Assembly: GCA_019358975.1 (NCBI GenBank)
Contig: JAHHIL010000007.1
Location: forward strand, 91,477-155,476
Source: Trichocoleus desertorum ATA4-8-CV12
Lineage (GTDB): Bacteria > Cyanobacteriota > Cyanobacteriia > FACHB-46
Direction of reading: 5' to 3'
DNA length: 64,000 nucleotides
Shown here in pieces: positions 7,696 through 35,801 of this stretch; position 1 is the first letter of the stretch; the number at the start of each line of letters is the position of its first letter. Under the pieces are notes generated by a model. That model was given only the letters and a program-made list of their open reading frames with translations. It was not told the DNA's origin and searched no databases. A program made the position numbers and the translations under genes.

Positions 7696-7726
7696 GACAA
7701 AACGGTAATCATGCCAGCGGTTAGCA

Positions 7727-11211: not shown

Positions 11212-11395
11212 ATTTTACAGGTCTCACCATCTTAGAAATACGTATATATACATATACAAAATTACATCCTGAGTCGGAGGCAGCCAGCTCGCCCTAACTT
11301 CTAGTCTGGTAGACGAAGCGTACATGCAGCCAGTTAGAGAAGTAGTTATGGCCCATATTCTGCTAATTGACGTAGCATGAGGAATCGATCGGTTC

Positions 11396-12166: not shown

Positions 12167-12196
12167 CCTTTTGGCGTTATCAGCGGATGACACAGA

Positions 12197-12412
12197 TGTA
12201 CAGGAACTAATTAAATGTCGTCGTGACTAATTAGTGTCGTCAGCCCAGAGTGACTACTGGATAAGTATTCCAGCGATCGCTCTGGGTCTAAAAGCTTACT
12301 GCAAATTACCTGAACTGGAGACAAATTGCGTGTCACAATCCAGATTAATGACAAATTACCTGTCGTATCTCCTCAAGGGCTTAAACTAAGGATGTGACAG
12401 ATTAGCTGTCGT
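12197..12412 (+). mobile_element. CAST/Tn7-like transposon end (cluster of TnsB-type sites)
   Basis: Begins TGTACAGGAACTAATTAAAT followed by GTCGTC, and continues with spaced copies of a GTGAC-nAATTAn-TGTCGTC word: 12223-12241, 12320-12336, 12349-12366 and 12394-12412, plus a weaker CAAATTACCTG at 12302. All have the same orientation and point into the region to the right. Terminal TGTACA followed by such direct repeats is how the ends of cyanobacterial type V-K CAST elements look. No transposase gene (tnsB/tnsC/tniQ) or cas12k is found near it, so this is a relic or the end of a non-autonomous element. Confidence 0.65.
12244..12286. repeat. Nested hairpin inside the transposon end
   Basis: Arms CCCAGAG (12244-12250) and CTCTGGG (12280-12286) enclose a second stem CTGGA/TCCAG. 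It lies between the first two and the later TnsB-type sites, spacing the site clusters. It could be a terminator or only structural. Confidence 0.5.
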
Positions 12413-12570
12413 GATTTAACCCTCAGTGGTGCTTGAGGCTAAATTTTATCAAGACTCATCACTTAATTGGAAAGAGGTGCTCGCTCGTTCCCGAAGTACA
12501 CGGGCGATCGCTTAACTCTGAATTAGGGTTGATCTATCACGTTACAAAAACCCTTTTCAGTAGTTTTTAA

Positions 12571-13308
12571 CTAATCTAATTCGTTTGGGTCTAGTCCCAT
12601 TGCCTGCAATCGGGCTGCTAGTCTGTCGGCTCGTTCGGCATCCGTAGGAATCCAACGGTTCTGGGCATCGTACCAACGGAGCCACTGGCGTTGAATGCCG
12701 CTGTATTCCCCATGCCATATTCCTATGCCGATATTCAGAGTTGGCATCCACAGCTTTGGTTCTGTGAGTTCTACTTCCTGATATTGGCCTGCAACTAGGG
12801 TAAAACAGCGGAGCAGGTTGGTGTAGCGGTTGAAGAGGATGTAATAAGGAATGCGGAGAATTTGCTCGTAGACTTCCCATTTGGTGGGAGGTTGGCCGCT
12901 GCTGCGATCGCGCTGACCGAGGTCTTCGGCTTCGGTGCCTGGGGAGAGTAGCTCGACTACAATGCTGGGACTGATGCCTTCTTGCCAGATGACGTAGCTT
13001 AAACGCAGGTCTCGGTTTTCGTAAAGACGAGGCACGCCGACCGCAGCGAACCAGTCGGGACGCTTGTACCAGTTGGGGTGGTGAACGTCGTAATACAGGT
13101 TGAGATCGCCAGCAGTAAAGACTTGGTCGGCAGCATAGTCTGCCAAGCGAAAGGTAGCACTCAGTAGTTGGGGCTGGAGGTAGTGATATTCATCGGGCAA
13201 GCCAGGTTCCTCTAGATTTTCGCTAGGCAAATCATACATGGTGGGCAGTACTTCTTTGGGCGATCGCGGGGGATCGGTCTGCTCAATGGAGGGTTTTGCC
13301 AGCGTCAT
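12571..13308 (-). CDS. Uma2 family (DUF820) restriction-endonuclease-fold protein
   Basis: 245 residues. Core features of the PD-(D/E)XK-like Uma2 family are present: DLNLYYDVHHPNWYKRPDWF, then SPSIVVELLSPGTEAEDLGQ (the Glu of the nuclease core), and KWEVYEQILRIPYYILFNR. The C-terminal tail (RWYDAQNRWIPTDAERADRL) is the usual repeat-prone end. Uma2 genes are multiplied in cyanobacterial genomes and common in mobile patches; their biological role is unsettled. It lies between the transposon end and the CRISPR array, on the opposite strand to both. Confidence 0.85.
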   Translation of the reverse strand: MTLAKPSIEQTDPPRSPKEVLPTMYDLPSENLEEPGLPDEYHYLQPQLLSATFRLADYAADQVFTAGDLNLYYDVHHPNWYKRPDWFAAVGVPRLYENRDLRLSYVIWQEGISPSIVVELLSPGTEAEDLGQRDRSSGQPPTKWEVYEQILRIPYYILFNRYTNLLRCFTLVAGQYQEVELTEPKLWMPTLNIGIGIWHGEYSGIQRQWLRWYDAQNRWIPTDAERADRLAARLQAMGLDPNELD

Positions 13309-13420
13309 ATTCAGCCTGCTGTAGTTTTAAGAACAGGGACATGGGGCGATCGCTTTCTATTTTAATGGTGGCAAAGACAAAGAGAGGACGGAGAATGTTT
13401 CGCTTCCGCCCTCTTGTATG

Positions 13421-13752
13421 GTTTCAATTAGTCCATTTCAACTCATTAGTGAGGCGCTGAGACTGGCGTAGGCATTGTCATTGTCCCGTTCGGGTTTTCA
13501 ACTAATCCGATTTTGGTTTACCGGTAAAGCCATCCGCTCCATGAAGTCGGGGCTAGCCAACGATCAGCGGGCTACCATGTTTCCAACTAATCCGATTTTG
13601 GTTTATCGGTAAAGCTTCCCGATGCTGATGCCCCAGTACGATTTACTTTTGTTTCCAACTAATCCGATTTTGGTTAATCGGTAAAGGGACTATTGGATCC
13701 AGAGTTACGGCGAATTGGTTACATTGTGCGTTTCCAACTAATCCGATTTTGG
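13421..13752 (+). CRISPR. Short CRISPR array: three full repeats, one cut repeat, possibly one degenerate repeat
   Basis: Three 36-nt repeats lie at 13494-13529, 13579-13614 and 13651-13686, sharing CAACTAATCCGATTTTGG and ending GGTAAAG. Inner bases form a stem (CCGAT/ATCGG; six pairs in the third copy, one mismatch in the first). Spacers are 49, 36 and 43 nt. A fourth repeat (13730-13752) is cut after 23 nt exactly where an IS begins. A diverged copy may start at 13421 (GTTTCAATTAGTCC). No cas genes are nearby and the repeat does not resemble type V-K repeats, so the array is an orphan remnant of another system. Confidence 0.82.
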
Positions 13753-14494
13753 CTGCTTGACTGACAAAACTAAAAAGCTGGAAAGCGTTTCAGGACAATA
13801 AATTCACGATTAAAAAACTGATCGTGTTGTCGTTGAGCAGCGAGCGCAGGTTGAGGGTCGGGGGCACTCGATAGAAACTGAAAAAGAGAAAGTTTCCATT
13901 GTTAAGTCAGGGCTAGACGAATCCAGTTCCAACCTAATTTGAGATAACTCATGCCCCGACGCCAATGAGTATCGACTAAACGACGCTGGCCCAATGCCAC
14001 TACTTGAGTCCCTTGCAGCACCAAAAACAGCATCGTCAGCGCAATCACGCCACAGAGTTGAGTCAGCGCAAATTTGTCTCTTAAGCGTGATGCTTCGAGG
14101 CTAAAGCCATTAGATTTGAGGTCCAAGAAAGATTCTTTCACTTGGAACCGGAATCGGTATTGGGCAAAGGTTTGTAAATTGGTAAGTTCGTCACTGACAA
14201 TCACCCAATCCTCGTCACTGGGTTGGTCATGAGCAAAGGCCAGATAAACATTGGCATCGGGCTTCCTTTTACCCAGAGACACAGCGGGAGTGAAGTAGGC
14301 TTGTCCGGGTTGCAGTCGGACTGATGAAACCTTGTACCTTGACATTGACTCAAATAATCATGCAACGCATCATAGAGACGGGAAGTAGGAGCCATGGGTT
14401 TTGCTAATGGGTGTGGTAACTGATCAGCTTAAACCAAGCTCCTCTTCCTTCTTACCTTTCGTTTCAATCCCTTAGACTTTTGTCAGCCAAGCAG
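13753..14494. mobile_element. Internally deleted insertion sequence (742 bp) that truncates the CRISPR array
   Basis: Terminal inverted repeats CTGCTTGACTGACAAAAC (13753-13770) and CTTTTGTCAGCCAAGCAG (14477-14494) match at 16 of 18 positions. Inside is only the end of a transposase plus a short out-of-frame start. No clear target duplication is seen (TTTGG on the left, GAGAA on the right), which suggests that DNA next to the element was lost after insertion. The right end lies 13 bp before the histidine-kinase start. Confidence 0.75.
13902..14395 (-). pseudogene. Transposase remnant (IS4-like DDE type)
   Basis: The frame 13902-14345 encodes the C-terminal part of a DDE transposase: YRFRFQVKESFLDLKSNGFS carries the YREK-like Glu region, followed by LRDKFALTQLCGVIALTMLF. 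A start-like MAPTSRLYDALHDYLSQ lies in another frame at about 14393, so the middle of the gene, with the catalytic aspartates, is missing and the ends are out of register. Not functional on its own. Confidence 0.75.
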
Positions 14495-14507
14495 GAGAAC
14501 AAGGGCT

Positions 14508-15938
14508 TTGTATCTTAGAAAACTCAATCGATTTCTTCGCCGATGGGGTGTGTTGGGGGAAGCCCGAACGCAAATATTAATTTGGTATTTGGGGCTAATG
14601 ACTTGCTCCGCGATTGTTACTGTCGTGGCTATTCGGGAGAAGCTTTCTGATCGTTTAGACCAAGAGTTTCAGCAATCACTAACCCGGGAAATTGAGGAGT
14701 TTCGGCAATTGACAACCGAACAAAATCCATCTACAGAAAAACCGTTTGGAAATGACATCGAATCTATTTTTAACGTGTTTCTTGATCGCACCGTGCCAGA
14801 TGATGGACAGTTTCTCATTACCCTATTCAATGGTCAGTTCTACCGTTCTAGCCCTAGCGCCATTCCAGGAGAGCTGCATAAGAATTCAGCCCTGATGAGT
14901 CAGCTAGCCCTGTCAACCCATTCTCAGCAGGGACAACTGACGATATCTCCCAATGACTCGCTGGTTTACATTGCTGAACCGCTAGTGAAGGGGAGCAACC
15001 GGGGGGTGCTTGTGGTAGCTTACTCCACAGCAACTGAGCACAAGGAGATTAATAATGCTGTAATTGTGGTTACAGAGGTGATGATCGGAGTATTGGGTTT
15101 TGCATCACTGCTTGCTTGGATTGCGGCAGGGCGGGTGCTAGCACCGCTACAGTTATTGTCTAAAGCAGCCCGTTCGGTGAGTGAGTCTGACCTGACGCAG
15201 CGACTACCTGTCCAGGGAAGCGGGGAATTAGACAGGGTAGCTCTCACCTTCAATGAGATGATGGATCGGTTGCAGGCAGCTTTTGACAGCCAGCGTAATT
15301 TCCTCAATGATGCAGGACATGAACTGCGAACTCCTATCACCATCGTGCGCGGGCATTTGGAGCTGATGGGAGATGATCCCGAAGAACAACAGGCAACCCT
15401 GGAATTGGTACTAGACGAACTCGATCGTATGAGTCGTTTGGTCAATGATTTAGTTGTGCTGGCAAAGGCAGAACGACCCGATTTTTTGCAATTTGAAACC
15501 GTGGACTTGAGTTCATTGACCGAGGAACTATTTACCAAAATTACGGCACTGGGCGATTGCAACTGGCAACTGGATGCCTTGGGCAAAGGGCAGATTGTGA
15601 TTGATCGACACCGGTTGACTCAAGCTTTGACAAATTTGGCACAAAACGCAACGCAATACACAGAGAGCACAGGTACAATCGCACTTGGATCTAGCTTAAG
15701 GGGGAACTTGATCCGGTTTTGGATAAGTGATACTGGCAAGGGAATTGCACCAGAAGACCAAAAGCGAATTTTTCAGCGATTTGCTCGTGGTATGAACAGC
15801 CGTTCTATAGAGGGGACAGGTTTAGGGTTAGCAATCGTGCAGGCGATCGCGGAAGCACATAACGGTCGGGTAGAGCTAAATAGCCAACTTGGGATGGGGT
15901 CTACTTTTACAATTATCATTCCACTGAAACCTGCTTAA
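14508..15938 (+). CDS. Sensor histidine kinase (membrane, HAMP, HisKA, HATPase)
   Basis: 476 residues: one helix near 23-43, an extracytoplasmic sensor of about 120 residues, a second helix near 180-205, HAMP (LAPLQLLSKAARSVSESDLT), the phospho-acceptor His ~271 in NDAGHELRTPI, and an ATPase domain with N-box LAQNATQYTE and GTGLGLAIVQAIAE. It autophosphorylates in response to an unknown signal and should serve the regulator that starts 13 bp downstream. The TTG start at 14508 is chosen by domain length; the frame stays open upstream into the IS end, so the native start or promoter may have been altered by that insertion. Confidence 0.85.
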   Translation: MYLRKLNRFLRRWGVLGEARTQILIWYLGLMTCSAIVTVVAIREKLSDRLDQEFQQSLTREIEEFRQLTTEQNPSTEKPFGNDIESIFNVFLDRTVPDDGQFLITLFNGQFYRSSPSAIPGELHKNSALMSQLALSTHSQQGQLTISPNDSLVYIAEPLVKGSNRGVLVVAYSTATEHKEINNAVIVVTEVMIGVLGFASLLAWIAAGRVLAPLQLLSKAARSVSESDLTQRLPVQGSGELDRVALTFNEMMDRLQAAFDSQRNFLNDAGHELRTPITIVRGHLELMGDDPEEQQATLELVLDELDRMSRLVNDLVVLAKAERPDFLQFETVDLSSLTEELFTKITALGDCNWQLDALGKGQIVIDRHRLTQALTNLAQNATQYTESTGTIALGSSLRGNLIRFWISDTGKGIAPEDQKRIFQRFARGMNSRSIEGTGLGLAIVQAIAEAHNGRVELNSQLGMGSTFTIIIPLKPA

Positions 15939-15951
15939 GAGGACATCTAAG

Positions 15952-16620
15952 ATGAGTCGCCTTCTAATTGCTGAAGACGAATCTCGGATTGCTGCCTTTA
16001 TAGAAAAGGGACTCAAAGCCAATGGATTAATCACAACCGTAGTGACCAATGCCCATGAGGCAATACTGCTGACCCAGAACGGTGAATTTGATCTGCTGAT
16101 TTTGGATTTAGGACTACCTGACCAGGATGGTTTGACTGTGCTAGAGATTCTGAGGGGGCAGGGGGAACGATTGCCCATTATTGTTTTGACTGCCCGTGAC
16201 GACATTCACGCCAAAGTAGCAGGTTTAGAAGGCGGCGCAGATGATTATGTAACCAAGCCGTTCCGGTTTGAAGAATTGTTGGCGCGGGTGCGGGTGCAAC
16301 TGCGAAATCGCCAAGTGTCTTCTAGCAAGGAAGATATGGTGCTGACAAGTGGTCCAGTGACGCTTAATCTGCGAACTCGTGAGGTACAGGTGGGCGATCG
16401 CCCGATTGAACTGTCAGCCCGAGAGTTCATCCTGGCAGAAACGTTTCTACGCTATTCAGGACAGGTGATGAGCCGGGAGCAGTTGCTCAACCACGTTTGG
16501 GGTTACGACTATGACCCTGGTTCAAACATTGTGGATGTGTATGTGGGGTATCTACGTAAGAAGCTTGGTGGTGACCTGATCGAAACCGTCAGAGGTATGG
16601 GTTACCGATTGCAGACATGA
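15952..16620 (+). CDS. OmpR/PhoB-family response regulator
   Basis: 222 residues: receiver with EDE acidic pocket, phospho-acceptor Asp ~52 in LLILDLGLPD, Lys in DDYVTKPFRF, then a winged-helix DNA-binding domain (LSAREFILAETFLRYSG to YVGYLRKKL and TVRGMGYRL). It follows the kinase by 13 bp and is its probable partner. Candidate targets are its own operon and the carbon-transport genes downstream; a row of TTCAT-type direct repeats at 17279-17325 is a plausible binding site. Confidence 0.92.
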   Translation: MSRLLIAEDESRIAAFIEKGLKANGLITTVVTNAHEAILLTQNGEFDLLILDLGLPDQDGLTVLEILRGQGERLPIIVLTARDDIHAKVAGLEGGADDYVTKPFRFEELLARVRVQLRNRQVSSSKEDMVLTSGPVTLNLRTREVQVGDRPIELSAREFILAETFLRYSGQVMSREQLLNHVWGYDYDPGSNIVDVYVGYLRKKLGGDLIETVRGMGYRLQT

Positions 16621-16726
16621 GAGCTTTTTCATTCAGTTTTCTCGAATCTCGTGACAAACTGTAAGAAGTGACGCAAAACACATTTTTTATGTGTTCCTGT
16701 TGGCTCTAGCCTCTTGATAGCAACCC

Positions 16727-17098
16727 ATGAAGCAGATTTTAATTGCTGAGGATGAATCTCGCATTGCCGCATTTTTAGAGAAAGGATTCCGCAAATATGG
16801 ATTTACAGTTGCGATCGCCCGCGATGGGCAAGAGGCGATCAAACTCACTCAAAAACAACCCTTTGATCTGCTGTTGCTTGATTTAGATTTGCCAGTGATC
16901 GATGGCTGGACTGTACTTAAGCAGCTACGTGCTCAGGGAGATTCGCGTCCGATTATTATCATCACGGCTCAGGACGATGAAAATCAAAAGGCAATGGCGC
17001 TAAAAATTGGCGCAAGTGACTACATCACAAAGCCACTGCGGTTCAAGGCACTGCTGACACGAGTCCAAACACAGTTGGTCGAGCGTTATATAGCTTAA
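16727..17098 (+). CDS. Single-domain response regulator
   Basis: 123 residues, receiver domain only. The first ~115 residues are clearly paralogous to the preceding regulator (KQILIAEDESRIAAFLEKGF versus RLLIAEDESRIAAFIEKGL), with Asp in LLLLDLDLPV and Lys in SDYITKPLRF. The DNA-binding half is absent and the protein ends right after the receiver, so it probably competes for, or relays, phosphate from the kinase rather than binding DNA. It looks like a duplication followed by loss of the winged helix. Confidence 0.85.
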   Translation: MKQILIAEDESRIAAFLEKGFRKYGFTVAIARDGQEAIKLTQKQPFDLLLLDLDLPVIDGWTVLKQLRAQGDSRPIIIITAQDDENQKAMALKIGASDYITKPLRFKALLTRVQTQLVERYIA

Positions 17099-17278
17099 TA
17101 TTTCTCGATTAACCTCCCTAGCCCCTGATTCTAGAGAAACTGTTCGGTTGCGTGTGCAAAGCACGTAACTTCTCAAAGTTTTAGAATTGAGGGCTTAAAA
17201 CCGTTTGGGCATACAAGAAAGGGAGGCGAATACAATTACTTGATCGACTCACCAAGCGGATTAGTTCGCAGCTACCCT

Positions 17279-17325
17279 TTCATGAAAGCTTTCTCATAAA
17301 ACGTTCATTGAAGATTCATTAAGCG
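17279..17325 (+). promoter_or_regulatory. Candidate OmpR-type operator: direct TTC-A/T repeats upstream of sulP
   Basis: Four direct repeats start at 17279 (TTCATGAAAGCT), 17291 (TTCTCATAAAACG), 17304 (TTCATTGAAGA) and 17315 (TTCATTAAGCG), spaced 12, 13 and 11 bases. About one helical turn between direct repeats is the pattern expected for PhoB/OmpR-class regulators, one of which is encoded just upstream. It lies about 200 bp before the SulP start. This is inferred from spacing alone. Confidence 0.4.
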
Positions 17326-17365
17326 TTGAGACTCTATTGGTTAATAGAAGTTAACGCGCTCAGGA

Positions 17366-17456
17366 CTTACGCAGTTAAATCTTCCATTTCCTTTGAGGAG
17401 TCTTAATGCGCTCCCTTCTTTAAGAAGCGGAGGAGAGCGAGATTTAAGTGCGTCAG
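17366..17456. repeat. 91-bp miniature inverted-repeat element
   Basis: Ends CTTACGCAGTTAAATCT (17366-17382) and AGATTTAAGTGCGTCAG (17440-17456) are inverted copies matching at 15 of 17 positions. The centre contains another hairpin (CTCCCTTCTT / AAGAAGCGGAG). No reading frame is inside. It sits between the candidate operator and the SulP gene, so it would be in the 5' untranslated leader if transcription starts at the operator. Confidence 0.6.
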
Positions 17457-17524
17457 CCCCACCGTGTGATCGTCTTTATTTCAAGCAATGACACTCTAAA
17501 AGTCATTGTGGTTGGAGGAAACTC

Positions 17525-19099
17525 GTGAGAAAGCTTAAAAGTCTCTTAGATCCGCAACTATTGACTAAGGATTTACTTGCTTCGTTTGTAGTGTTCCTCG
17601 TTGCTTTGCCGCTGTGTATGGGTATCGCGCTTGCCTCTGGCGTGCCGCCTGCTCTGGGTTTGGTGACAGGTATGGTGGGTGGCATTGTTGTTGGCAGTAT
17701 TTCGGGTTCGCCCTTTCAAGTCAGTGGACCAGCGGCTGGATTGGCGGTTGTCGTAGCAGAACTCGTGCGCGACCACGGCATCGAGATGGTGGGTCCGGTG
17801 CTGATGTTAGCAGGCTTAATTCAACTGCTAGCAGGTCGGTTTAAGCTGGGGCAACTATTTCGGGCCATGTCTCCTGCAGTGATCTACGGCATGTTGTCGG
17901 GTATTGGGGTGCTGATTCTCGCATCTCAGCTCCACGTCATGATCGATGACAAGCCCCGTATTCATGGCATTGACAACTTGCTCTCTATCCCTGAAGCCTT
18001 CTATAAAGCTTTCGTCTCGGTTAGTGACGCTAATCATCATCTAGCAGCAGCAATCGGCTTTTTATCAATTGTGACGCTGGTGGCATGGGATAAGTTTAAG
18101 CCTGAAAAATTAAGGCTGGTACCCGGTGCATTAGTTGCAGTGGTTCTAGCGACATTAATTGCAAGCATATTAAAGCTACAGATCAGTTATGTAGATGTCC
18201 CTGCGAATTTGCTAGAAACAATTCGACTACCGCAACTGAGCAGTTTTTTTAATGTGATTCGAGCTCCCATGTTGCTCCAGGCAATCACAATTGCATTCAT
18301 TGCCAGTGCCGAAAGTTTGCTCTCAGCCGTCGCAGTCGATCGCATGCACCAGGGTCCCAGAGCGAATTTTGATCAAGAGTTAAGTGCCCAGGGAATTGGT
18401 AACCTGATTTGCGGAGCACTGGGTACCGTGCCAATGACAGGGGTGATTGTGCGTAGCTCGGTCAACGTGGAGGCGGGTGCAAAAACCAGAGTTTCAGCCA
18501 TTCTGCACGGAGTGTGGTTAATTGTATTGGTAGTGGCTGCTCCTAACTTGCTCAGGATGGTGCCAACCGCAAGTCTGGCTGCAATTCTAGTTGTCACAGG
18601 CTACCGGCTAATTGAAGTAGAACATATTCGTCACCTCAAACGATATGGGCGAATTCCGCTGATCATCTTCTTCGCCACCTTTATTACCATCGTGATCACG
18701 GAGCTGTTAACAGGAATTCTAATTGGCATTGTCTTAACCGCAGTCTTCGTGATTTCCAAAGTGTCTAACTTGAAGATTCGGGTAGAGCATGATGAGCGTA
18801 CTCAACGGATTGACATTCACTTAGAAGGTGCTGCAACGTTTGTCCGCTTGCCTGAGTTAGCCTCTGCTCTAGAAAGGATTCCTCCTAAGACACAGTTGTA
18901 CGTTCATCTGGAAAAGCTGGCTTATGTCGATCACACTTGTTTCGACTTGCTGTCTAACTGGGCAAGCCAGCAGGAAGGAAGAGGCAGCACCATCACCGTG
19001 GAATGGGAAGGTTTAACGGATCGCTACCGCAGACCGTTTGCTACGCGAACGAATCCAGTGAGCTTTCCTGCATCAGGTCCCTTTGCAGAAGAGTTTTAG
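17525..19099 (+). CDS. SulP family anion transporter with STAS domain (bicarbonate transporter-like)
   Basis: 524 residues. N-terminal SulP core with LPLCMGIALASGVPPALGLV and SGPAAGLAVVV, about 10-12 membrane segments up to ~residue 410, then a C-terminal STAS domain (VRLPELASALERIPP, VDHTCFDLLSNWA). Cyanobacterial SulP proteins include the sodium-dependent bicarbonate transporter BicA as well as sulfate carriers. The placement before NDH-1 CO2-uptake genes favours bicarbonate, but sequence alone does not prove it. The GTG start follows GGAGG at 17514-17518. Confidence 0.82.
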   Translation: MRKLKSLLDPQLLTKDLLASFVVFLVALPLCMGIALASGVPPALGLVTGMVGGIVVGSISGSPFQVSGPAAGLAVVVAELVRDHGIEMVGPVLMLAGLIQLLAGRFKLGQLFRAMSPAVIYGMLSGIGVLILASQLHVMIDDKPRIHGIDNLLSIPEAFYKAFVSVSDANHHLAAAIGFLSIVTLVAWDKFKPEKLRLVPGALVAVVLATLIASILKLQISYVDVPANLLETIRLPQLSSFFNVIRAPMLLQAITIAFIASAESLLSAVAVDRMHQGPRANFDQELSAQGIGNLICGALGTVPMTGVIVRSSVNVEAGAKTRVSAILHGVWLIVLVVAAPNLLRMVPTASLAAILVVTGYRLIEVEHIRHLKRYGRIPLIIFFATFITIVITELLTGILIGIVLTAVFVISKVSNLKIRVEHDERTQRIDIHLEGAATFVRLPELASALERIPPKTQLYVHLEKLAYVDHTCFDLLSNWASQQEGRGSTITVEWEGLTDRYRRPFATRTNPVSFPASGPFAEEF

Positions 19100-19158
19100 T
19101 TCCCTCCATTCCCGAACGGGTTGGTTTGTAAGTTTTTACCTATTAGCAGTTGAGAGAG

Positions 19159-21039
19159 ATGTCAATCACTGAATTCCTCATTCAAACCATCTGGCTGATT
19201 CCGTTCTATGGCTTGCTAGGTGCAGTTCTCACCCTTCCCTGGTCTTTAGGAATCATTCAACGCACAGGCCCTCGTCCAGCAGCGTATTTCAATCTACTCA
19301 TGACCTTTAGCGCCTATGTGCATGGGCTATTTGTCTTCAACGCAGTTTCGAACCATCCGGCTCAACAGCTGATAATTCATTGGTTCCATGCGGCAGACCT
19401 CGATTTGACTTTTGCCCTGGAAATTTCTGCGGTTACTGTTGGGGCGATGGAGTTGGTGACAGGACTGAGCCTCCTGGTACAACTGTTTGCCCTGGGCTAC
19501 ATGGAGAAAGACTGGGCATTGGCCCGTTTCTTTGCCCTAATGGGATTTTTTGAGGCAGCCATGAGTGGGTTAACCCTGAGTGATTCACTGTTGCTCAGCT
19601 ACTGCCTGCTAGAGTTGTTAACCGTCTCCACCTATTTGCTGGTGGGCTTCTGGTATGCCCAGCCTTTAGTGATCACAGCCGCGCGCGATGCCTTCCTGAC
19701 TAAGCGAGTGGGTGATGTGCTGCTGCTAATGGGCGTTGTTGCGCTTTCTACTCTGGCTGGCAGCACCAATTTTTCTGACCTGTATACCTGGGCAGAAACG
19801 GCTCATTTATCACCTGTCACCGCAACACTGCTGGGATTGGCTCTGATAGCGGGTCCAGTTGGTAAGTGTGCCCAGTTTCCGCTGCATTTGTGGTTAGATG
19901 AAGCGATGGAAGCACCCAGTCCTGCCTCAGTGTTGCGAAATTCGCTGGTGGTTTCCTGCGGTGCCTACCTGCTGATTAAGATGCAGCCCATTTTAGCCCT
20001 GTCGCCGATTGTGATGGCAACGTTGATTGCGATCGGCTCCGTAACTGCGATCGGCTCTTCTCTGGTGGCGATCGCGCAAATTGACATTAAGCGTGCCCTT
20101 TCTCACTCCACGAGCGCCTACCTGGGATTGGTATTTGTCGCGGTGGGCATACAGCAAATCGAGTTTGCCCTGATGCTGATTCTGGCCCATGCGATCGCCA
20201 AAGCCCTTCTGTTTATGAGTATCGGCTGCGTGATTGCCAACACGAATAGCCAGGATTTGACCGAGATGGGCGGATTGGGCAAAACCATGCCAATTACCGC
20301 GAGTGCATTTCTGGTGGGTGCGGTTGGCTTAGTCGGACTGTTTCCGTTGGGTGGCTTTTGGGCAATGCAACAGGGGGTCGATCGCTTCTGGGCAGATGCT
20401 CCTTGGCTCATCAGTGTGTTGCTATTGGTGAATGGCTTGACAGCGTTTAATATGATGCGAGTCTTTCGTCTGGTGTTCTTGGGGCAACCGCAGGTGAAAG
20501 CCCGTCGAGCCCCAGAAGTAGGTTGGATGATGGCTCTACCAATGGTGGCTCTGAACGTGACGGACATCTCAGTTCCCTTGATGCTGCGAAAGTTAATGTT
20601 GCTGCCTCCTATCTTCAGCTTGAATCCCGTGGCAGAAATGCTGCTTGTAGCGTCTGGCTTACTGGGTTTTGGGGTCGGTGCCATGTTCCCGTTCAAGCGA
20701 ATCTGGTTGAGCCCGGTGTCTAAGATTCCAGGCTTCTTCCACAACATGCTGGCCTATGACTTCTATGCCGATCGTTTATATCACTCAACGGTGGTCTTTG
20801 CAGTGGCGCAGATCTCGAAGTTCTCTGTCTGGTGCGATCGCTACATCTTTGATGGCGTTGCAAATTTAATTGGATTTGCTGCCATCTTTAGCGGTCAGAG
20901 TCTTAAGTATGTCACGTCTGGCGCTTCTCAATCCTATGTATTTACTATCTTGGTGAGTTTAGGTGTGCTGGTTGTGATGGTGAGTTGGGAGTTTTTGCAG
21001 GGTTTTAGTTTATCCACTGTCATTAGCTTTCTCTTCTAG
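19159..21039 (+). CDS. ndhF: NAD(P)H-quinone oxidoreductase subunit F, CO2-uptake type (NdhF3/NdhF4)
   Basis: About 626 residues with the NuoL/NdhF proton-pumping core: HLWLDEAMEAPSPASVLRNS, then KRALSHSTSAYLGLVFVA, and LTKRVGDVLLLMGV. Association with NdhD and a CO2-hydration protein directly downstream identifies the specialised membrane-arm module of the NDH-1MS/MS' complexes, which power hydration of CO2 to bicarbonate at the thylakoid. F3 versus F4 cannot be fixed here: no cupS follows, which leans to the F4/D4/CupB type. ATG 19159 is preferred over the TTG at 19150. 59 bp separate it from the SulP gene. Confidence 0.88.
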   Translation: MSITEFLIQTIWLIPFYGLLGAVLTLPWSLGIIQRTGPRPAAYFNLLMTFSAYVHGLFVFNAVSNHPAQQLIIHWFHAADLDLTFALEISAVTVGAMELVTGLSLLVQLFALGYMEKDWALARFFALMGFFEAAMSGLTLSDSLLLSYCLLELLTVSTYLLVGFWYAQPLVITAARDAFLTKRVGDVLLLMGVVALSTLAGSTNFSDLYTWAETAHLSPVTATLLGLALIAGPVGKCAQFPLHLWLDEAMEAPSPASVLRNSLVVSCGAYLLIKMQPILALSPIVMATLIAIGSVTAIGSSLVAIAQIDIKRALSHSTSAYLGLVFVAVGIQQIEFALMLILAHAIAKALLFMSIGCVIANTNSQDLTEMGGLGKTMPITASAFLVGAVGLVGLFPLGGFWAMQQGVDRFWADAPWLISVLLLVNGLTAFNMMRVFRLVFLGQPQVKARRAPEVGWMMALPMVALNVTDISVPLMLRKLMLLPPIFSLNPVAEMLLVASGLLGFGVGAMFPFKRIWLSPVSKIPGFFHNMLAYDFYADRLYHSTVVFAVAQISKFSVWCDRYIFDGVANLIGFAAIFSGQSLKYVTSGASQSYVFTILVSLGVLVVMVSWEFLQGFSLSTVISFLF

Positions 21040-21137
21040 AAGCTGATGTTGAGAGTGAACAGTGAGTCCTGAAACATGGGTTTACGAAAGATAGCTGAGT
21101 GAATCGAGAAGCTGAAGCTTAAATAAGGAGAATGATC

Positions 21138-22646
21138 ATGCTGAGTGCTTTGATTGGGATACCTTTATTAGGTGCAGTTATCATTGGGTTTTGTCCTGGA
21201 ATCACGCCTCGTTCGGCTCGCTGGGGTACTTTGGCGATCGCAACATTAATGTTTGTTTGGACGATCGCCTTAGCAAGTCAGTTTGATCTGTTGAGTTCTA
21301 CGTTGCAGTTTGAGGAACATCTTTCCTGGCTGGATACGCTGGGTTTGACGTACCATCTGGGGATTGATGGGTTATCGTCGTCTCTCTTGGTGCTGAATGG
21401 ATTGCTGACCGGAATTGCCATCTACAGCACCACTAAAGATATTCATCGTCCCCGATTGTATTACGCGCTAATGTTGCTGTTGAATGCAGCGGTGGCAGGA
21501 GCGTTCTTGGCTCACGATTTGCTGCTGTTTTTCCTGTTCTATGAACTGGAACTGCTTCCCCTGTACCTGCTGATTAACATTTGGGGCGGTGCGCGACGGG
21601 AGTATGCAGCGACTAAGTTCCTGATTTTTACATCCCTTTCGGGCATGTGCTTACTGGTTAGCTTCCTAGGAGTCGTCGGTTTCACAGGGGCATCTACCTT
21701 TGCCTACGACCCAACACTGGCTGCCATGCTTCCACTCGAAACTCAAATGCTTTTGCTACTGCCGATTCTGCTAGGGTTTGCCATCAAGGTGCCGCTAGTT
21801 CCGTTTCACACCTGGCTACCTGATGCTCATGTCGAGGCTTCAACCCCCGTTTCCGTCTTATTGGCAGGAGTTCTGTTGAAGTTGGGCACCTACGGATTGC
21901 TGCGCTTTGGGGTAGGGTTATTTCCTGCAGCCTGGACAACTTTGGCTCCTTGGTTAGCAGCCTGGGCGGTAGTGAGTGTGTTGTTTGGGATACTCGCGGC
22001 GATCGCTCAAACCGACATGAAGAAGATGGTTGCCTACAGCTCAGTTGGACACATGGGCTTTATTCTGCTGGCAGCAGCGGCGGCAACACCACTGAGCTTG
22101 CTGGGAGCCGTTGTGCAAATGGTGAGTCACGGTCTCATCTCTGGCTTACTGTTTCTGCTGGTGGGCGTGGTCTACGTCAAAACGGGGACGCGCAGTTTGG
22201 ATACGCTCAAAGGACTGCTCAATCCCGAACGCGGACTGCCAGTGGTGGGGAGCTTGATGGTGTTAGCGGTGATGGCAAGTGCTGGAATTCCTGGTATGGC
22301 AGGATTTGTCGCTGAGTTTTTGATCTTCCGGGGTAGTTTTGCGGTGTTTCCAGCACAAACGCTGCTTTGCATGGTCGGTACAGGCTTGACGGCAGTTTAC
22401 TTCCTGGTGTTACTCAACCGTGCCTTTTTTGGTCGCCTGTCATCAGCAGTGATAGATCTACCTCGCGTTAGTTGGTCAGAACGCCTCCCAGCAGCTGTTC
22501 TAGCGGCAATCATCATTCTGTTGGGGATTCAACCAAGTTGGTTGATTGGTCTGAGTGAAGCCGCGAGCGCAGCCTTGGAACCCACGACAAGAATCACAGA
22601 CGCATCCTTGGTCATCTCTCAGCCCAGCACTGCTCCACCGCTGTAA
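21138..22646 (+). CDS. ndhD: NAD(P)H-quinone oxidoreductase subunit D, CO2-uptake type (NdhD3/NdhD4)
   Basis: About 502 residues, NuoM/NdhD family. The pumping channel motifs are visible: LLFFLFYELELLPLYLLINI with its key Glu, PLVPFHTWLPDAHVEASTPV, LLAGVLLKLGTYGLLRFG and QTDMKKMVAYSSVGHMGF with the channel lysines. About 14 membrane helices. ATG 21138 is chosen because AAGGAG (21124-21129) is then about 8 bases upstream; the ATG at 21132 is too close. It is the second subunit of the CO2-uptake NDH-1 membrane module. Confidence 0.9.
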   Translation: MLSALIGIPLLGAVIIGFCPGITPRSARWGTLAIATLMFVWTIALASQFDLLSSTLQFEEHLSWLDTLGLTYHLGIDGLSSSLLVLNGLLTGIAIYSTTKDIHRPRLYYALMLLLNAAVAGAFLAHDLLLFFLFYELELLPLYLLINIWGGARREYAATKFLIFTSLSGMCLLVSFLGVVGFTGASTFAYDPTLAAMLPLETQMLLLLPILLGFAIKVPLVPFHTWLPDAHVEASTPVSVLLAGVLLKLGTYGLLRFGVGLFPAAWTTLAPWLAAWAVVSVLFGILAAIAQTDMKKMVAYSSVGHMGFILLAAAAATPLSLLGAVVQMVSHGLISGLLFLLVGVVYVKTGTRSLDTLKGLLNPERGLPVVGSLMVLAVMASAGIPGMAGFVAEFLIFRGSFAVFPAQTLLCMVGTGLTAVYFLVLLNRAFFGRLSSAVIDLPRVSWSERLPAAVLAAIIILLGIQPSWLIGLSEAASAALEPTTRITDASLVISQPSTAPPL

Positions 22647-22709
22647 GCAACCACTTAGCAATCCTTAGCAATTCCGTTAAATCCATCAAAACCTTTAGGA
22701 GGCATTGTC

Positions 22710-23840
22710 ATGGTTACAACCAGCGTGTCATTGAAGTCATCCAGTCATCCCCTCAGTCACTACATTCATCAACTCGAATCGGGTCATACCCTGCTTCCCA
22801 ACTCGACCCAGCATGTTCAGGAAGTTGTGGGAGTTCTGCACAGCTACGGGATTGTCCTGGATGCCTACTGCAAAAATTTGATTTACATTGCTGAAAATGC
22901 TTTTCTAGAGCCGTTTCCCTTCTTCAAATATTTCAATGGGGAAATCACGCTCAAAAAGATACTGCAATATGCACAGCACGATCGCATCAACTTTGAATAT
23001 GCTGAATACTGCATGAAGGCAATGTTGTGGCATGGTAGCAACAGCTTTGATGCTTACCTGGATTCCCCGGAACTCGCCGCCCTAGCTCAACAGGCGATCA
23101 CCACTAAACTGCACAACAATCCCCTCCTCCAAGGATTTCATCGCCTCTTTCCAGCCTTTTTCCCAGAACAGATTCGGCAACTGTGCTACTACAGTGCCCT
23201 GGGTCAGTTCTGGCGCATCATGAGCGATCTGTTTATGGAATTGTCGGCTGGCTACGATCGCGGCGAGATTCCATCCGTTCGTCACGTCGTTAACCACATT
23301 TGCCAGGGTTTGGTTGATGCTGCTGCAACCCCCATCACTTACACCGTCAGAATTCGCAACCAGTCTTACGACATCATTCCCCTCTCCGCCGGAATCACGT
23401 TTTTGATGGACGTGGCGGTTCCCTATGTCGAAGCCGTTTTTCTCAAGGGAACGCCCTTTTTTGGCACGGTCTCCTACAACGCTCAGGCACACCAGATTTC
23501 TCCCAACCCCGCTGAATTTGCTTACGGCGCATTGTTTGCTGATCCACTCATGACCGGAGCCGCAGGCATTCCACCCACACTACTCATGCAAGATATGCGT
23601 CATTTCTTGCCAAATTACCTGCATAAGATCTATCAGCGATCGCCCAGAGGCGAAGACAACCTGCGGGTCCAAATTTGCCAGAGCTTCCAAAAATCTATGT
23701 TCTGCGTGACCAATGCCGCCATTCAAGGGCTAGCTCCCCATTCCCTCTGTACCTCTGATCCGAACGAGCAGCAAGCAGTCCGTGCCTACCTGGAAGGATG
23801 GATGAACCGCCTCTTGACCTCCCGTCTATCCCAACTGTAA
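22710..23840 (+). CDS. CO2 hydration protein (CupA/CupB, also ChpY/ChpX)
   Basis: 376 residues of the low-CO2 'CO2 hydration protein' family found only in cyanobacteria. Diagnostic stretches include YIAENAFLEPFPFFKYFNGE, FHRLFPAFFPEQIRQLCYYS and LGQFWRIMSDLFMELSAGYD. It docks on the NdhF/NdhD arm at the cytoplasmic face and uses a zinc site to turn CO2 into bicarbonate in one direction. AGGAGG (22698-22703) precedes the ATG. Length and absence of a cupS neighbour lean toward CupB, but this needs a tree, so no symbol is given. Confidence 0.88.
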   Translation: MVTTSVSLKSSSHPLSHYIHQLESGHTLLPNSTQHVQEVVGVLHSYGIVLDAYCKNLIYIAENAFLEPFPFFKYFNGEITLKKILQYAQHDRINFEYAEYCMKAMLWHGSNSFDAYLDSPELAALAQQAITTKLHNNPLLQGFHRLFPAFFPEQIRQLCYYSALGQFWRIMSDLFMELSAGYDRGEIPSVRHVVNHICQGLVDAAATPITYTVRIRNQSYDIIPLSAGITFLMDVAVPYVEAVFLKGTPFFGTVSYNAQAHQISPNPAEFAYGALFADPLMTGAAGIPPTLLMQDMRHFLPNYLHKIYQRSPRGEDNLRVQICQSFQKSMFCVTNAAIQGLAPHSLCTSDPNEQQAVRAYLEGWMNRLLTSRLSQL

Positions 23841-23910
23841 CGACCTTCCCTTCATTACATAAACTTACCCCCGTTCCAAAAATCTCTCAATCGTTGCCGG
23901 AAGTTTGACT

Positions 23911-25176
23911 ATGAAAGTCGGTCTACCAACCAGAGCCTTTGATGCTTCTCACAAGACCTTGTGGGACCCAGTACAAACTGCTTACCAGTGGTTCACTAAA
24001 ACACCAGAACGGGCTTTGGAGCAAGCCTATCAAGCAGTACTGAACATTCAGGCGATCGAGCGTCAATACTTTGATGGCAATGACATTGATCTGACTTTAA
24101 CCCGTCATCCTACCAATGTGATGGCGTGTTTGCGAACTGACCTCGATCGTTACCTCAACACCGCTAAACTGCGAGTTGCAGAATTCAAGCTGAGTCGAGC
24201 CATGCTGGGCAGGACAGATTACGCACTGCTGGAAAAACTGGCAGTGATCGATCAACTGCTTGCCAAATATGAGGCAAAGCTAACGATGGCTAAAAACACC
24301 CGCTTGACGACCGTTCCACCAGAGAGACTACAGGCAGATTTAGATATGTTTGAAGGGGCACCTCCTGCCCATGAGTCCTCGAAGAGAAAGAGTGTCTTAC
24401 CACGCTCCATTGGTAGAACCGTCAATCGCATCACAACAGAATTAAACCCTAATTCTGAAAAAGAGCTCCTCACCAACTTTCGCCACTCCAGCACAAAAAC
24501 TAGAGTCGCACTCAAATTTCTTGCCCTGCTGATTCTGGTGCCGATATTGACTCAACAGTTATCGAAAAACTTTCTGATTGAACCAATCGTGGAGCGGTTT
24601 CATAGGGAAAACTCCGCTCAGGCATTCTTGAACGTTGAAATGAAAGAGGAAGCCTTGCAGGAGTTAGAAGCCTTTGAAAAAGAACTGCGCTTTCAAAATT
24701 TACTGGCTACAGCCCCGCAACTCTCAACCGAGGCGATCGAAACCCAAGTCCATGCAAAAGCGGTTGAAATTGCAGAGCACTACCGCGATCGCGGTAGCCA
24801 TGCGATTGGTAATGTCTTTGCTGATCTACTCGGCTTATTTGCCTTTTGCTGGCTACTTGTGATCAGTCCAAAGCAAATTGCTGTTTTGAAGTCATTCATA
24901 GATGATATCGTTTATGGACTAAGCGACAGTGCCAAAGCATTCATCATTATCTTGCTAACGGATATCTTCGTTGGCTATCACTCGACCCACGGCTGGGAAG
25001 TTTTGCTGGAAGAAATAGCGAACCATTTGGGAATTGCTGTGAGCCGGAATGGCATCTTCTTGTTCATTGCAACCTTCCCGGTGATTCTTGACACCGTCTT
25101 CAAGTACTGGATATTCCGTTATCTCAGCCGCACATCTCCCTCCGCTGTCGCCACACTCAAAAATATGAATGAATAG
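23911..25176 (+). CDS. pxcA: Proton extrusion protein PxcA (CemA family)
   Basis: 421 residues. A long soluble N-terminal part with coiled-coil character is followed by the CemA-like membrane domain: KFLALLILVPILTQQLSKNF, LLGLFAFCWLLVISPKQIAV, FIIILLTDIFVGYHSTHGW and the hallmark end LDTVFKYWIFRYLSRTSPSA with VATLKNMNE. PxcA supports light-induced proton release and Na+-dependent inorganic carbon uptake. It stands in the place where cupS follows cupA in some genomes. ATG 23911 is used; the TTG at 23905 is an alternative. Confidence 0.88.
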   Translation: MKVGLPTRAFDASHKTLWDPVQTAYQWFTKTPERALEQAYQAVLNIQAIERQYFDGNDIDLTLTRHPTNVMACLRTDLDRYLNTAKLRVAEFKLSRAMLGRTDYALLEKLAVIDQLLAKYEAKLTMAKNTRLTTVPPERLQADLDMFEGAPPAHESSKRKSVLPRSIGRTVNRITTELNPNSEKELLTNFRHSSTKTRVALKFLALLILVPILTQQLSKNFLIEPIVERFHRENSAQAFLNVEMKEEALQELEAFEKELRFQNLLATAPQLSTEAIETQVHAKAVEIAEHYRDRGSHAIGNVFADLLGLFAFCWLLVISPKQIAVLKSFIDDIVYGLSDSAKAFIIILLTDIFVGYHSTHGWEVLLEEIANHLGIAVSRNGIFLFIATFPVILDTVFKYWIFRYLSRTSPSAVATLKNMNE

Positions 25177-25409
25177 TACTTATTGCTAATTGTGTCTCAG
25201 TAGTGTTCTATTCATGCAACGTTGTTGAACTATACAAGGTGCTCTCAACTCAATTGAACAATAGCGCGACAGTCCCCATCCCTCTTTAGGGTGGGGAAGG
25301 ATAGCGCGGCAATGAAGCGAAGCGGAATTGCCAATTATAATTGTCATTTCACAATTTGTATAAAACACAGACAAGTTAGGGGTTTGAGCGTTTTGAGAAC
25401 AAATATCGT
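25177..25409. other. Non-coding stretch with two hairpins between pxcA and the homing crRNA
   Basis: Contains a strong hairpin at 25274-25296 (CCCCATCCCT against AGGGTGGGG), flanked by TAGCGCG words on both sides (25262 and 25302), and a weaker GGCAAT/ATTGCC pair (25309-25333). It could be the terminator of the carbon-uptake genes or a small fold-back repeat. No open frame is convincing. Confidence 0.5.
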
Positions 25410-25455
25410 GTTTCAAAATCCAGATGGGTTGAAAGGAGTGCTACGATCGCACCTC
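25410..25455 (+). CRISPR. Delocalised CAST homing crRNA: one shortened repeat plus tRNA-matching spacer
   Basis: Repeat 25410-25435 starts GTTTCAAAATCCA and ends TGGGTTGAAAG, the 3' end of type V-K (Cas12k) CAST repeats; the internal hairpin of a full repeat is missing. The next 20 bases (25436-25455), GAGTGCTACGATCGCACCTC, match tRNA-Ala at 25668-25687 (minus strand) at 18 of 20 positions, differing at positions 8 and 19. The target is preceded by GTA, fitting the GTN PAM. Isolated, diverged repeat-spacer units of this kind direct V-K CASTs to tRNA genes. Neither cas12k nor a tracrRNA is visible here. Confidence 0.8.
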
Positions 25456-25503
25456 ATTGGGTATTAAGCTCCAGGTTGGATTGCCTGAGCATAGGTTATC
25501 CTC

Positions 25504-25633
25504 AAAAATTGGACATTAATTCTTTAAACAGGAATTTTGAGGGGGTTAATTGTCTCCTAGAGCCTGAAACCCCCAAAACTCGTAAAATTAGACATTAATT
25601 CTTTAAATGTGACAAATAATTCTTTAAAGGACA
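25504..25633 (-). mobile_element. CAST transposon end abutting tRNA-Ala
   Basis: Read from the tRNA outward (minus strand) it begins TGTCCTTTAAAGAATTATTT followed by GTC. On the plus strand three copies of A-TAATTCTTTAAA lie at 25512-25528, 25591-25607 and 25611-25628, two of them preceded by GACATT and the last by GACAA. An inverted pair (TTTTGAGGGGGTT / AACCCCCAAAA, 25536-25578) lies between. The outer end is 2 bp from the tRNA 3' end and 54 bp from the PAM, within the spacing known for V-K elements (about 49-66 bp). The sites differ in wording from the 12.2-kb cluster, sharing only AATTAn..TGTC. Confidence 0.65.
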
Positions 25634-25635
25634 TA

Positions 25636-25708
25636 TGGAGAATAGGGGAGTCGAACCCCTGACCTCTGCGGTGCGATCGCAGCACTCTACCAACTGAGCT
25701 AATTCCCC
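25636..25708 (-). tRNA. tRNA-Ala (anticodon CGC)
   Basis: 73-nt cloverleaf: acceptor GGGGAAT/ATTCTCC, D-arm GCTCAGTTGGTAGAGT, anticodon stem CTGCG/CGCAG with loop ATCGCAC, so anticodon CGC for codon GCG, and T-arm AGGGGTTCGACTCCCCT. CCA is not encoded. The anticodon arm contains a full HIP1 octamer GCGATCGC. It is the target of the nearby homing spacer. The element end starts 2 bp after the discriminator base, so the mature tRNA is left intact. Confidence 0.95.
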
Positions 25709-25721
25709 AGATAACCCCGCT

Positions 25722-34376: not shown

Positions 34377-34691
34377 ATGAGTAGTCCTTTTGGGCGATCG
34401 CTACATACCCCTATAGCGGAAGTTGGCGTTGTTGATCCCTACTACGCTTCATAGTGTTAGCACAAGCAATGTTAAATCATAGCCAAGCCTGGAGCATGGC
34501 TCAAGCTCAAAAAGCCTATCTACTCAAATGCTTCCCATACCCTTCCCAAACCTAAATGTGTCTTTGGCTTGAAGCATTTTTATTAGCTATTTCGTGAAAC
34601 AGAACTGTTGTTTGTAGGACTGGGCTATGGGTGTGGTGAATGTTTGAGTGAATGCTTGATGTGCAAAAAATACAACTTTAAGGAGATAGTG
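34377..34691. other. Intergenic region upstream of the Gly/Thr-repeat gene
   Basis: About 315 bp. It holds a HIP1 site and, near 34505-34585, a loose inverted pair (CAAGC.. / ..GCTTG around AAGCTCAAAAAGCC and GGCTTGAAGC). AAGGAGATAG at 34679-34688 is the ribosome site of the next gene. Nothing else recognised. Confidence 0.4.
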
Positions 34692-35558
34692 ATGAAGCCG
34701 AATCATAATCAACGTAACAAGCTGACCGGGATTATCGGACTCTTCAGTGCAACTGCTTTCATGAGTGTCTCAGCCCTAATGCTGGTAGCCCAAAAGGGTT
34801 TAACCTTACATGATCAGAGCAGTCAATCTAATCAGGTGCTAGCCCAAAGTACAACGGGCGGTGGTACGACAGGTGGTACAACGGGCGGTGCTACTGGCAC
34901 AACGGGCGGCACAACGGGCGGCACAACTGGTGGTACTGGTAGCTATGGCACTGGTGGTGCTGGTGGTACCACTGGTGGCACAACAGGGGGCACAACGGGT
35001 GGCACAACTGGTGGTTATGGCACTGGTGGCGCTACTGGTACGACGGGCGGCACAACGGGCGGTTATGGCACTGGTGGCGCTGGTGGTACTGGTGGTACAA
35101 CGGGCGGAACCACAGGTGGCACAACTGGTGGCTATGGTACTGGCGGTACAACTGGTGGCACAACGGGTGGCTATGGCACTGGTGGTGGCGCTGGTGGTAC
35201 GACGGGCGGTACAACTGGTGGTACAACAGGTGGCGCTGGTGGCACAACGGGCGGTACAACAGGTGGCGCTGGTGGCACGACTGGTGGTACAACAGGTGGC
35301 ACGACGGGTGACTATGGCACTGGCGGTGGTGCTGGCGGAACCACAGGTGGCACGACGGGTGACTATGGCACTGGCGGCGGCGCTGGCGGTACAACGGGCG
35401 GAACCACAGGTGGCACGACGGGTGACTATGGCACTGGCGGTGGTGCTGGCGGTGGTGCTGGCGGTACGACCACGGACTATGGGACAGATGGTGGCGCTGG
35501 TGGCGGTGCTGGTGGTGGTGCTGGTGGTGCAACAGAAGGAGTCAGAGCTCTCTGGTAA
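34692..35558 (+). CDS. Secreted Gly/Thr-rich repeat protein
   Basis: 288 residues. ATG 34692 follows AAGGAG; the longer frame from 34608 is not supported. A signal sequence (about 1-45, GIIGLFSATAFMSVSALMLV) precedes an Ala-Gln-Ser cleavage region. The rest, ~225 residues, is TTGG/GAGG units punctuated by SYGTGG, GYGTGG and DYGTGG tyrosines. At DNA level the unit is about GGTGGCACAACGGGC, so frames on both strands stay open. A flexible, glycine-loop matrix or sheath protein is plausible. Repeat number is likely to vary between strains. Confidence 0.75.
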   Translation: MKPNHNQRNKLTGIIGLFSATAFMSVSALMLVAQKGLTLHDQSSQSNQVLAQSTTGGGTTGGTTGGATGTTGGTTGGTTGGTGSYGTGGAGGTTGGTTGGTTGGTTGGYGTGGATGTTGGTTGGYGTGGAGGTGGTTGGTTGGTTGGYGTGGTTGGTTGGYGTGGGAGGTTGGTTGGTTGGAGGTTGGTTGGAGGTTGGTTGGTTGDYGTGGGAGGTTGGTTGDYGTGGGAGGTTGGTTGGTTGDYGTGGGAGGGAGGTTTDYGTDGGAGGGAGGGAGGATEGVRALW

Positions 35559-35801
35559 GCTGCTAACTGTATAGAGAGTGGAAACCCTATTACTCTGAGC
35601 CTTTAGATTGATGTGAGTATTGCCTGCTGTTATGTAGTGTAAGGTTGCGAAACGCGATCGCTGATCGCTTCTCCTAATTCTGAATTACATACCTGCATAG
35701 CAGTAGGCTCTCATTTCCTCTTCTAGCCTTATAAGGATTTCCTAACTTTGAGCTATGTAGGAAATGATGGGTAGCACTCTTTAAGTAGTTGATCGAAACT
35801 G

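Follow-up and report, generated by a model that had tools for sequence, protein, structure and literature searches.

Beside a tRNA-Ala(CGC) gene, an island of about 13.4 kb (12197-25633) is bordered by the ends of two different type V-K CAST families, and it is probably the fused remains of two CASTs that stacked at this one tRNA and whose inner ends and machinery were deleted. The window that holds it, which is the whole 64,000-nucleotide stretch of DNA analysed here, belongs to a 6.06-Mb, 90-contig draft genome (G000, with contigs given C-numbers), and "family A" and "family B" are labels that we coined in this analysis for the two V-K transposon families. New in this analysis are the extent of the insertion and the identity of its far end, which we read as the right end of the other V-K family. 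The initial annotation of this DNA had recognized the left end but overlooked both the second end (12197-12411) and a CAST with Cas12k on contig C23. Our literature search, which covered open-access sources and few subscription papers, returned no account of V-K ends that are fused, of left ends standing alone, or of V-K CASTs devoid of machinery.

Homing of CAST guides to tRNA genes allows unrelated CASTs to pile up at a single tRNA. The present locus indicates what can remain of such a stack: fused, mismatched ends with stranded genes between them. Islands of this kind escape surveys seeded with cas12k or tnsB; anchor crRNAs and end-site registers detect them. The locus also offers a test of family-specific CAST target immunity.

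Table 1. Features of the island and its attachment site, in window coordinates
Feature	Position	Strand	Basis or remark
Right end (family A) of V-K-type transposon, terminus TGTACAG (as read)	12197-12411	+	TnsB-type sites 12205, 12225, 12320, 12350, 12396
Uma2-family nuclease gene	12571-13308	-	PF05685, E 2e-19
Four 37-nt direct repeats, CRISPR-array-like	13493-13765	.	Similar repeats on C39
Open frame in multi-copy stretch 13753-14495	13902-14345	-	IS-like by copy number only; copies in C68, C75, C42, G002
Sensor kinase, response regulator, single receiver-domain genes	14508-17098	+	Pfam/NCBIfam
SulP-family transporter, distantly BicA-like	17525-19099	+	PF00916, E 1e-68; NCBIfam BicA model, E 2.5e-41, far under cut-off
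ndhF3-type gene, CO2-uptake NDH-1 family	19150-21039	+	TIGR01960, 925 bits (cut-off 588.7)
ndhD-type gene (NDH-1 subunit M)	21132-22646	+	NF005060, 794.8 bits (cut-off 747)
CO2 hydration protein (chpXY family)	22710-23840	+	TIGR01964, 516 bits (cut-off 293.7)
pcxA-type gene (proton extrusion)	23905-25176	+	NF002703, E 3.5e-147, 491 bits, below cut-off 526
R*, truncated V-K CRISPR repeat GTTTCAAAATCCAGATGGGTTGAAAG	25410-25435	+	3' 11 nt TGGGTTGAAAG same as R* of C23 Cas12k locus and of L089
17-nt anchor spacer vs tRNA-Ala(CGC)	25436-25452	+	16/17 to tRNA, GTA PAM
Left end (family B), inner TnsB-type site	25505-25528	+	
Left end (family B), second TnsB-type site	25584-25607	+	
Left end (family B), outer TnsB-type site and terminus ..GGACA	25605-25633	+	Homology to G002 begins at 25634
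tRNA-Ala(CGC), attachment site	25635-25709	-	17-nt protospacer 25687..25671, PAM 25690..25688

The tRNA-side end

By its sequence features, 25410-25633 is a type V-K CAST left end with a predicted tRNA-homing crRNA sequence. In the layout given in PMC9938897, the left end lies downstream of a tRNA that points at the transposon, and a truncated repeat (R*) is followed by a 17-nt anchor read toward the left end, with a GTN PAM and 46 to 82 nt from PAM to end; a tRNA-matching 17-bp motif is likewise described at the ShCAST left end (PMC10949235). The window has R*, an anchor of about 17 nt against the adjoining tRNA, a GTN PAM 54 bp from the last base of the end, TnsB-type sites, and a TGT/ACA terminus. 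Read over 20 nt (25436-25455), the spacer matches the tRNA gene at 18 positions (protospacer 25687..25668, minus strand), and the outermost of three TTAATTCTTTAAA-like sites is ATAATTCTTTAAA.

Chance resemblance, or ancestral tRNA-flank DNA, could be suspected from a HIP1-like GCGATCGC in the anticodon arm of the tRNA, a motif common in cyanobacteria. In dinucleotide shuffles of 25177-25633, however, the best 20-mer against the tRNA gene reached 16 matches, with 18 found in 0/300, none of 100 shuffles contained the site motif TTTAAAGAATTAWTGTCNNATTTT (<=3 mismatches), and left end B is absent from the corresponding site in the same-genus genome G002 (see below), all of which leaves this explanation next to no probability. 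The 12-mer TAATTCTTTAAA occurs five times in the whole 6.06-Mb assembly, three times at left end B and twice at the left end on C23.

The letters and coordinates of repeat, spacer, PAM, and 54-bp distance given in the initial annotation all held on re-check, and its identification of a V-K left end with a tRNA-homing crRNA sequence stands on R*, a 16/17 anchor, a GTA PAM, and three TnsB-type sites. It had called the place and direction of the crRNA unusual; by PMC9938897, both are canonical. We compared 16 loci chosen for having R*, sought in that orientation only (14 at tRNA-Ala(CGC), the C23 locus, and L092). The best anchor had a GTA PAM and 15 to 17 of 17 matches in all 16, and anchor start and tRNA 3' end were 135 to 417 bp apart, a range that includes the 199 bp of the window.

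The initial annotation was also right that the window has no cas12k, tnsB, tnsC, or tniQ: 13 Cas12k, TnsB, TnsC, and TniQ queries found no remnant there, the best match (E 0.11) lying outside the island. A complete V-K CAST, with cas12k, tracrRNA, array, and tnsB-tnsC-tniQ inside the element, is thus not what the island contains. An 85-bp repeat at 25253-25337, between the pcxA-type gene and R*, starts with the V-K-tracrRNA-like AATAGCGC; it was rejected as a tracrRNA remnant, as it also occurs at C4:189561 (94%).

A related left end on contig C23

Searching the genome for Cas12k, as the initial annotation had proposed, returned a single match, a 687-aa protein on contig C23 (NCBIfam NF038191, 644 bits against a cut-off of 150; PADLOC, 1.7e-206). 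There, cas12k is followed by a tracr-like region, repeat-like units, R* TGGGTTGAAAG, an anchor that matches tRNA-Ala(GGC) at 17/17 positions, the site motif, and that tRNA gene; the contig ends 4.6 kb upstream of cas12k, before any tnsB. The C23 locus shares with the window the R* core TGGGTTGAAAG, the TTAATTCTTTAAA sites, and a tRNA-Ala target, with 59 bp from PAM to end, and differs in targeting tRNA-Ala(GGC) and in having retained Cas12k, the tracr-like region, and a DUF499 gene. Since R* core and site motif are common to both, the two are, judged by sequence, left ends of one CAST family (B) in G000. Duplex energies between R* and the C23 tracr region were no better than those of shuffles, so this pairing test did not discriminate.

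With the TnsB of L089 as query, no TnsB was found in the G000 assembly, an absence that in a 90-contig draft is no proof; the same search returned, fragments included, one match in G001, seven in G002, six in G158, and four in G072. The G001 match is a TnsB-like gene at 35% identity, in a genome with no Cas12k match. A PF09299 profile search was empty for G000 but also for 14 control genomes, while the L089 TnsB itself matches the profile (42.4 bits). One speculation, to which we give little credence, is that the full-length and presumably nuclease-dead Cas12k of G000, together with the anchors for tRNA-Ala GGC and CGC, is what a CAST with no detectable transposase has turned into, a pair of RNA-guided binders of tRNA-Ala genes that would lower transcription or guard these sites against further CASTs, a CO2/HCO3- uptake cassette having been delivered and locked beside one of them.

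The far end

We read 12197-12411 as the right end of V-K family A, distinct from B, on the basis of its site register. Site spacing helps to distinguish the two V-K transposon ends (PMC11406308). The sites at 12197 have offsets of 0, 20, 115, 145, and 191. In right ends that adjoin tnsB the offsets are 0, 20, 115, 145, and 202 (L167) and 0, 22, 115, 145, and 201, with one weak extra match at 176 (L211); two G002 clusters in the fitting orientation have 0, 20, 115, 145, and 190 (L164, with the closest full tnsB some 36 kb away) and 0, 20, 113, 143, and 189 (L166, some 12 kb away). Sites 1 to 4 at 12197 agree with L167 and L211, and the fifth with L164 and L166. The four left ends compared run 0, 21, 41, 60, and 88 (L173, L174, and L105) or 0, 21, 40, 60, and 88 (L175). 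Among seven family-A-like stretches upstream of tnsB, the full right-end register was seen only in L167 and L211, was partial in L106 and L170, and was absent from L105, L165, and L161.

The exact-core site cluster at 12197 was reached in 0/200 shuffles. It has the spacing of a right end, with no tnsB directly inside it. Family A ends presumably resemble those of ShCAST. At about 36% identity, the A and B TnsB proteins represent different families. Elsewhere in G002 (C1, 90 kb to 138 kb; L105/L163/L164), a left end with Cas12k at tRNA-Val lies about 48 kb from a right-end-like cluster. RAMP/Cmr3 genes and CRISPR-like repeats occupy the interval and may be a type III system carried as CAST cargo, though the cluster does not adjoin tnsB.

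Insertion at tRNA-Ala(CGC)

Of the two other same-genus genomes compared, G002 and G001, it is G002 that places the island as an insertion. G002 matches the window from 39167 to 25634, with gaps at 37608-34242 and 31431-28360, and its other flank matches from 12171 to 6070. Between these flanks G002 has a 6.1-kb stretch with a phage-integrase-family gene, a repeated copy of the 3' part of the tRNA, and a short transposon-end fragment; of this intervening DNA, only the repeated tRNA part has a match in the window. Homology ends at 25634, the base adjoining the predicted left-end terminus, and the roughly 13.4 kb of 12197-25633 is missing from G002 at the same tRNA. Because G002 has no left end B there and homology stops at the terminus, 12197-25633 is, on these alignments, an insertion beside tRNA-Ala(CGC). 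The initial annotation had named relatives carrying the left-end sequence as ancestral DNA as the finding that would count against its reading; G002, lacking left end B, favours insertion instead. In G001 another element occupies this tRNA and the flank is differently arranged, so the ancestral flank order is taken from G002 alone.

At its tRNA-Ala(CGC), G002 carries, 81 bp from the PAM, an A-type left-end-like fragment whose sites are spaced by 21 bp and whose terminus, TGTACTATACAG, is aberrant. A TCTGT duplication common to the flank of this fragment and that of the G000 right end hinges on how the aberrant terminus is read, and we did not count it as evidence. Adjoining the fragment is an integrative element of about 6.1 kb (L156:7248-13470), in which roughly 100 bp comprising the 3' part of the tRNA and its flank are duplicated, with a phage-integrase-family gene at 12208-13308 of that locus (PF00589). 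The G001 element (L155:6404-15511, 9.1 kb) has inverted B termini that agree at 17/17 positions and sensor/Ser-Thr kinase genes, and it lacks both R* and any CAST gene; the adjoining gene takes its stop codon from the right end of the element. We rejected it as a clean mini-CAST, since the right end has one recognisable site and the flanks show a 4/5 duplication (CCATT/CCATC), so that it looks decayed.

Origin of the island

The two borders of the island do not form a pair. Its 5-bp flanks, ACAGA and TATGG, show no target-site duplication, no right end matching left end B was found in G000 at the sensitivity used, and the island lacks two matched ends of the kind that one TnsB could use. Across the whole G000 genome the exact family-B motif is absent elsewhere apart from the C23 left end. 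With up to 3 mismatches, the terminal pattern gave 108 matches against 148 for a reversed-pattern control, so weak matches carry no signal, and none of five that were inspected showed a second site in the 180 bp examined for each. The rest of contig C7 has scattered one- or two-mismatch matches and no B-site cluster; the window has no further B site (<=1 mismatch), no further exact-core A site, and no inner-end remnant.

The initial annotation had suggested a mini-CAST mobilised in trans, that is, a non-autonomous element still movable by Cas12k and transposase encoded elsewhere. C23 does encode a 687-aa Cas12k beside the same R* core and site motif, and elements that carry no machinery between two B ends are known from G001 (L155:6404-15511) and G190 (L210:1757-2264). 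The family A far end, the missing duplication, the lack of a B right end in G000 at the sensitivity used, and the lack of TnsB in a search that was positive for the other four of five genomes nevertheless make this explanation improbable. Still less probable is a single insertion of one CAST with naturally unlike ends: both borders are TGT/ACA in the expected mutual orientation, yet in the two full elements examined at both ends, B elements only (L089/L108 and L100:6965-18052), one motif recurs at the two termini and a 5-bp duplication flanks the element; 12197-25633 has no such duplication.

A further alternative is that the ends are independent relics, a solo B left end with its crRNA at the tRNA and an old A right end 13 kb away, and that the genes between them arrived by ordinary recombination or IS activity and not as CAST cargo. 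Part of the content fits, in that 12500-13687 copies DNA of C39 and 13753-14495 is multi-copy, and solo B left ends with R* and no core genes nearby occur in other genomes. Set against this, the 13.4 kb missing between the G002 flanks is bordered on both sides by transposon termini, and we regard independent relics as unlikely.

We return to two stacked and fused CASTs as the probable origin. The initial annotation had spoken of a decayed CAST; decay fits, but of a fusion of two CASTs and not of one element. In the proposed sequence, a family-A CAST would have used tRNA-Ala(CGC) in the ancestor of G000 and G002, its traces being, in G002, the fragment that resembles a family-A left end and, in G000, the A right end kept by the same flank gene (weakly ZIP-like, 11396-12166). 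A family-B CAST would then have inserted beside the tRNA, 54 bp from the PAM, by means of the R*-anchor at 25410-25452 and Cas12k. Deletion or recombination would subsequently have removed the B right end, the A left end, cas12k, the tracrRNA, and tnsB-tnsC-tniQ, leaving the carbon-uptake-type genes between the ends fixed in the chromosome. Since transposition requires the transposase to bring together a matched pair of ends, the remnant is likely immobile. The junction of A- and B-derived DNA was not located, which limits this model.

Stacked and complete CASTs at other loci

Stacking of B upon A at one tRNA has a precedent. At tRNA-Pro in G347 (L100), the left end of a family-A CAST is interrupted by a family-B CAST of 11,088 bp (6965-18052), which has a tnsB and a Cas12k of its own and is flanked on both sides by ACAAT, a perfect 5-bp duplication. 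Between B and the tRNA, 86 bp of the A left end remain; the A terminus is 61 bp and the B terminus 147 bp from the PAM, and the single reported exception to the PAM-to-end distance is the same 147 nt (PMC9938897). The outer family-A element has its tnsB and right end in L211. The anchor beside each of the two R* is GCGCACTTCGTTCGGGA, which matches tRNA-Pro at 17/17 positions. As in the window, B lies on the tRNA side and A outside, at one tRNA; unlike in the window, two Cas12k and two tnsB genes are present and B sits within the A left end. Because both families share one tRNA-Pro target here, CAST target immunity does not seem to extend from one family to the other.

The closest full counterpart of the tRNA-side end is in Filamentous cyanobacterium CCP2 (L089/L108; L089 is PVWD01000102), where a full B element at tRNA-Ala(CGC) has B-type sites at each end and is flanked left and right by AGTAA. 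L089 and the window share R*, a 17-nt anchor, a GTN PAM, a left end 46 to 82 nt from the PAM, TTAATTCTTTAAA sites, and a tRNA-Ala(CGC) that points at the element. The window differs in having no cas12k, tracrRNA, array, or tns genes, in the family of its far end, and in left-end site spacing (79+21 vs 102+21). Leptolyngbyaceae cyanobacterium SL_7_1 (L205) is like the window in its R*-to-site layout at tRNA-Ala(CGC), a spacing of 79+22, and no core genes on the contig, and unlike it in an anchor matching at 17/17 and a contig of only 6.9 kb.

Anchors and ends without core genes

Degenerated cas12k copies are mentioned in PMC9938897. Among 388 genomes of the class, 10 matched the anchor pattern; 8 of the anchors adjoin tRNA-Ala(CGC) and 2 (L198 and L199) do not. 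Core genes lie near two of the eight (G128 and G158), whereas five have none: the inward stretch covered was 15 to 18 kb for G224, G333, and G190, 25 kb for the window, and, for G272, the 3 kb left before its contig ends. For the eighth, G115, the sequence ends 1.1 kb inward. A scan of named genomes gave seven loci, with cas12k intact in one (L202 = G158), broken or fragmentary in three (L203, L204, and L206), and no core genes in the stretch in two (L200 and L205 = G272); L201 is cut off near the anchor. Machinery-free left ends are ordinary; the unusual feature here is that mismatched ends have been fused around a block of genes.

The 14 tRNA-Ala(CGC) anchors, from loci that are not all independent, matched at 17/17 in 3 cases, 16/17 in 10, and 15/17 in 1. 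Position 15 was mismatched in 8 of the 14, with A, T, or G for C, which looks like a recurrent, perhaps selected, anchor imperfection. In G190, a gene-free element of about 0.5 kb (L210:1757-2264), with no clear target-site duplication, consists of right-end sites, one CRISPR repeat-spacer, R*-anchor, and left-end sites, both ends being B, and is a candidate miniature CAST.

Genes between the ends

The island (GC 0.484) is unmarked by GC relative to its flanks (0.480 and 0.488), and either CAST may have brought in the carbon-uptake-type genes as cargo. Over 19158-23828, long matches in G001 and G002 are 64 to 70% identical (two 110-bp pieces reach 75 to 76%), on par with G000 paralogs, compared with flank identities of 86 to 93% for pieces of G002 and mostly 80 to 81% for G001, where two are at 71 to 72%. 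Because these matches are only paralog-level and far below flank identity, 19158-23828 looks, from such comparisons, like an additional set of these genes that, of the three same-genus genomes, G000 alone has. The carbon-acquisition-type block is absent from the tRNA-Ala(CGC) site in both G001 and G002. Genes of central carbon metabolism are reported as Tn7-like cargo in PMC8649781, and the parts of that source available to us show no CO2-uptake cassette as such cargo.

Other parts of the content have different affinities. The Uma2 gene and the first CRISPR-like repeats (12500-13687) are 92% identical to a segment of C39, which also has a longer run of similar repeats, and by this identity the segment need not be CAST cargo. 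The open frame at 13902-14345 has no Pfam match. The pcxA-type gene is a second copy in G000, with a paralog at C7:41594-42934. Beyond the tRNA, 34845-35545 is a long run of 12-nt-based repeats within the open frames 34608-35558 and 34861-35574.
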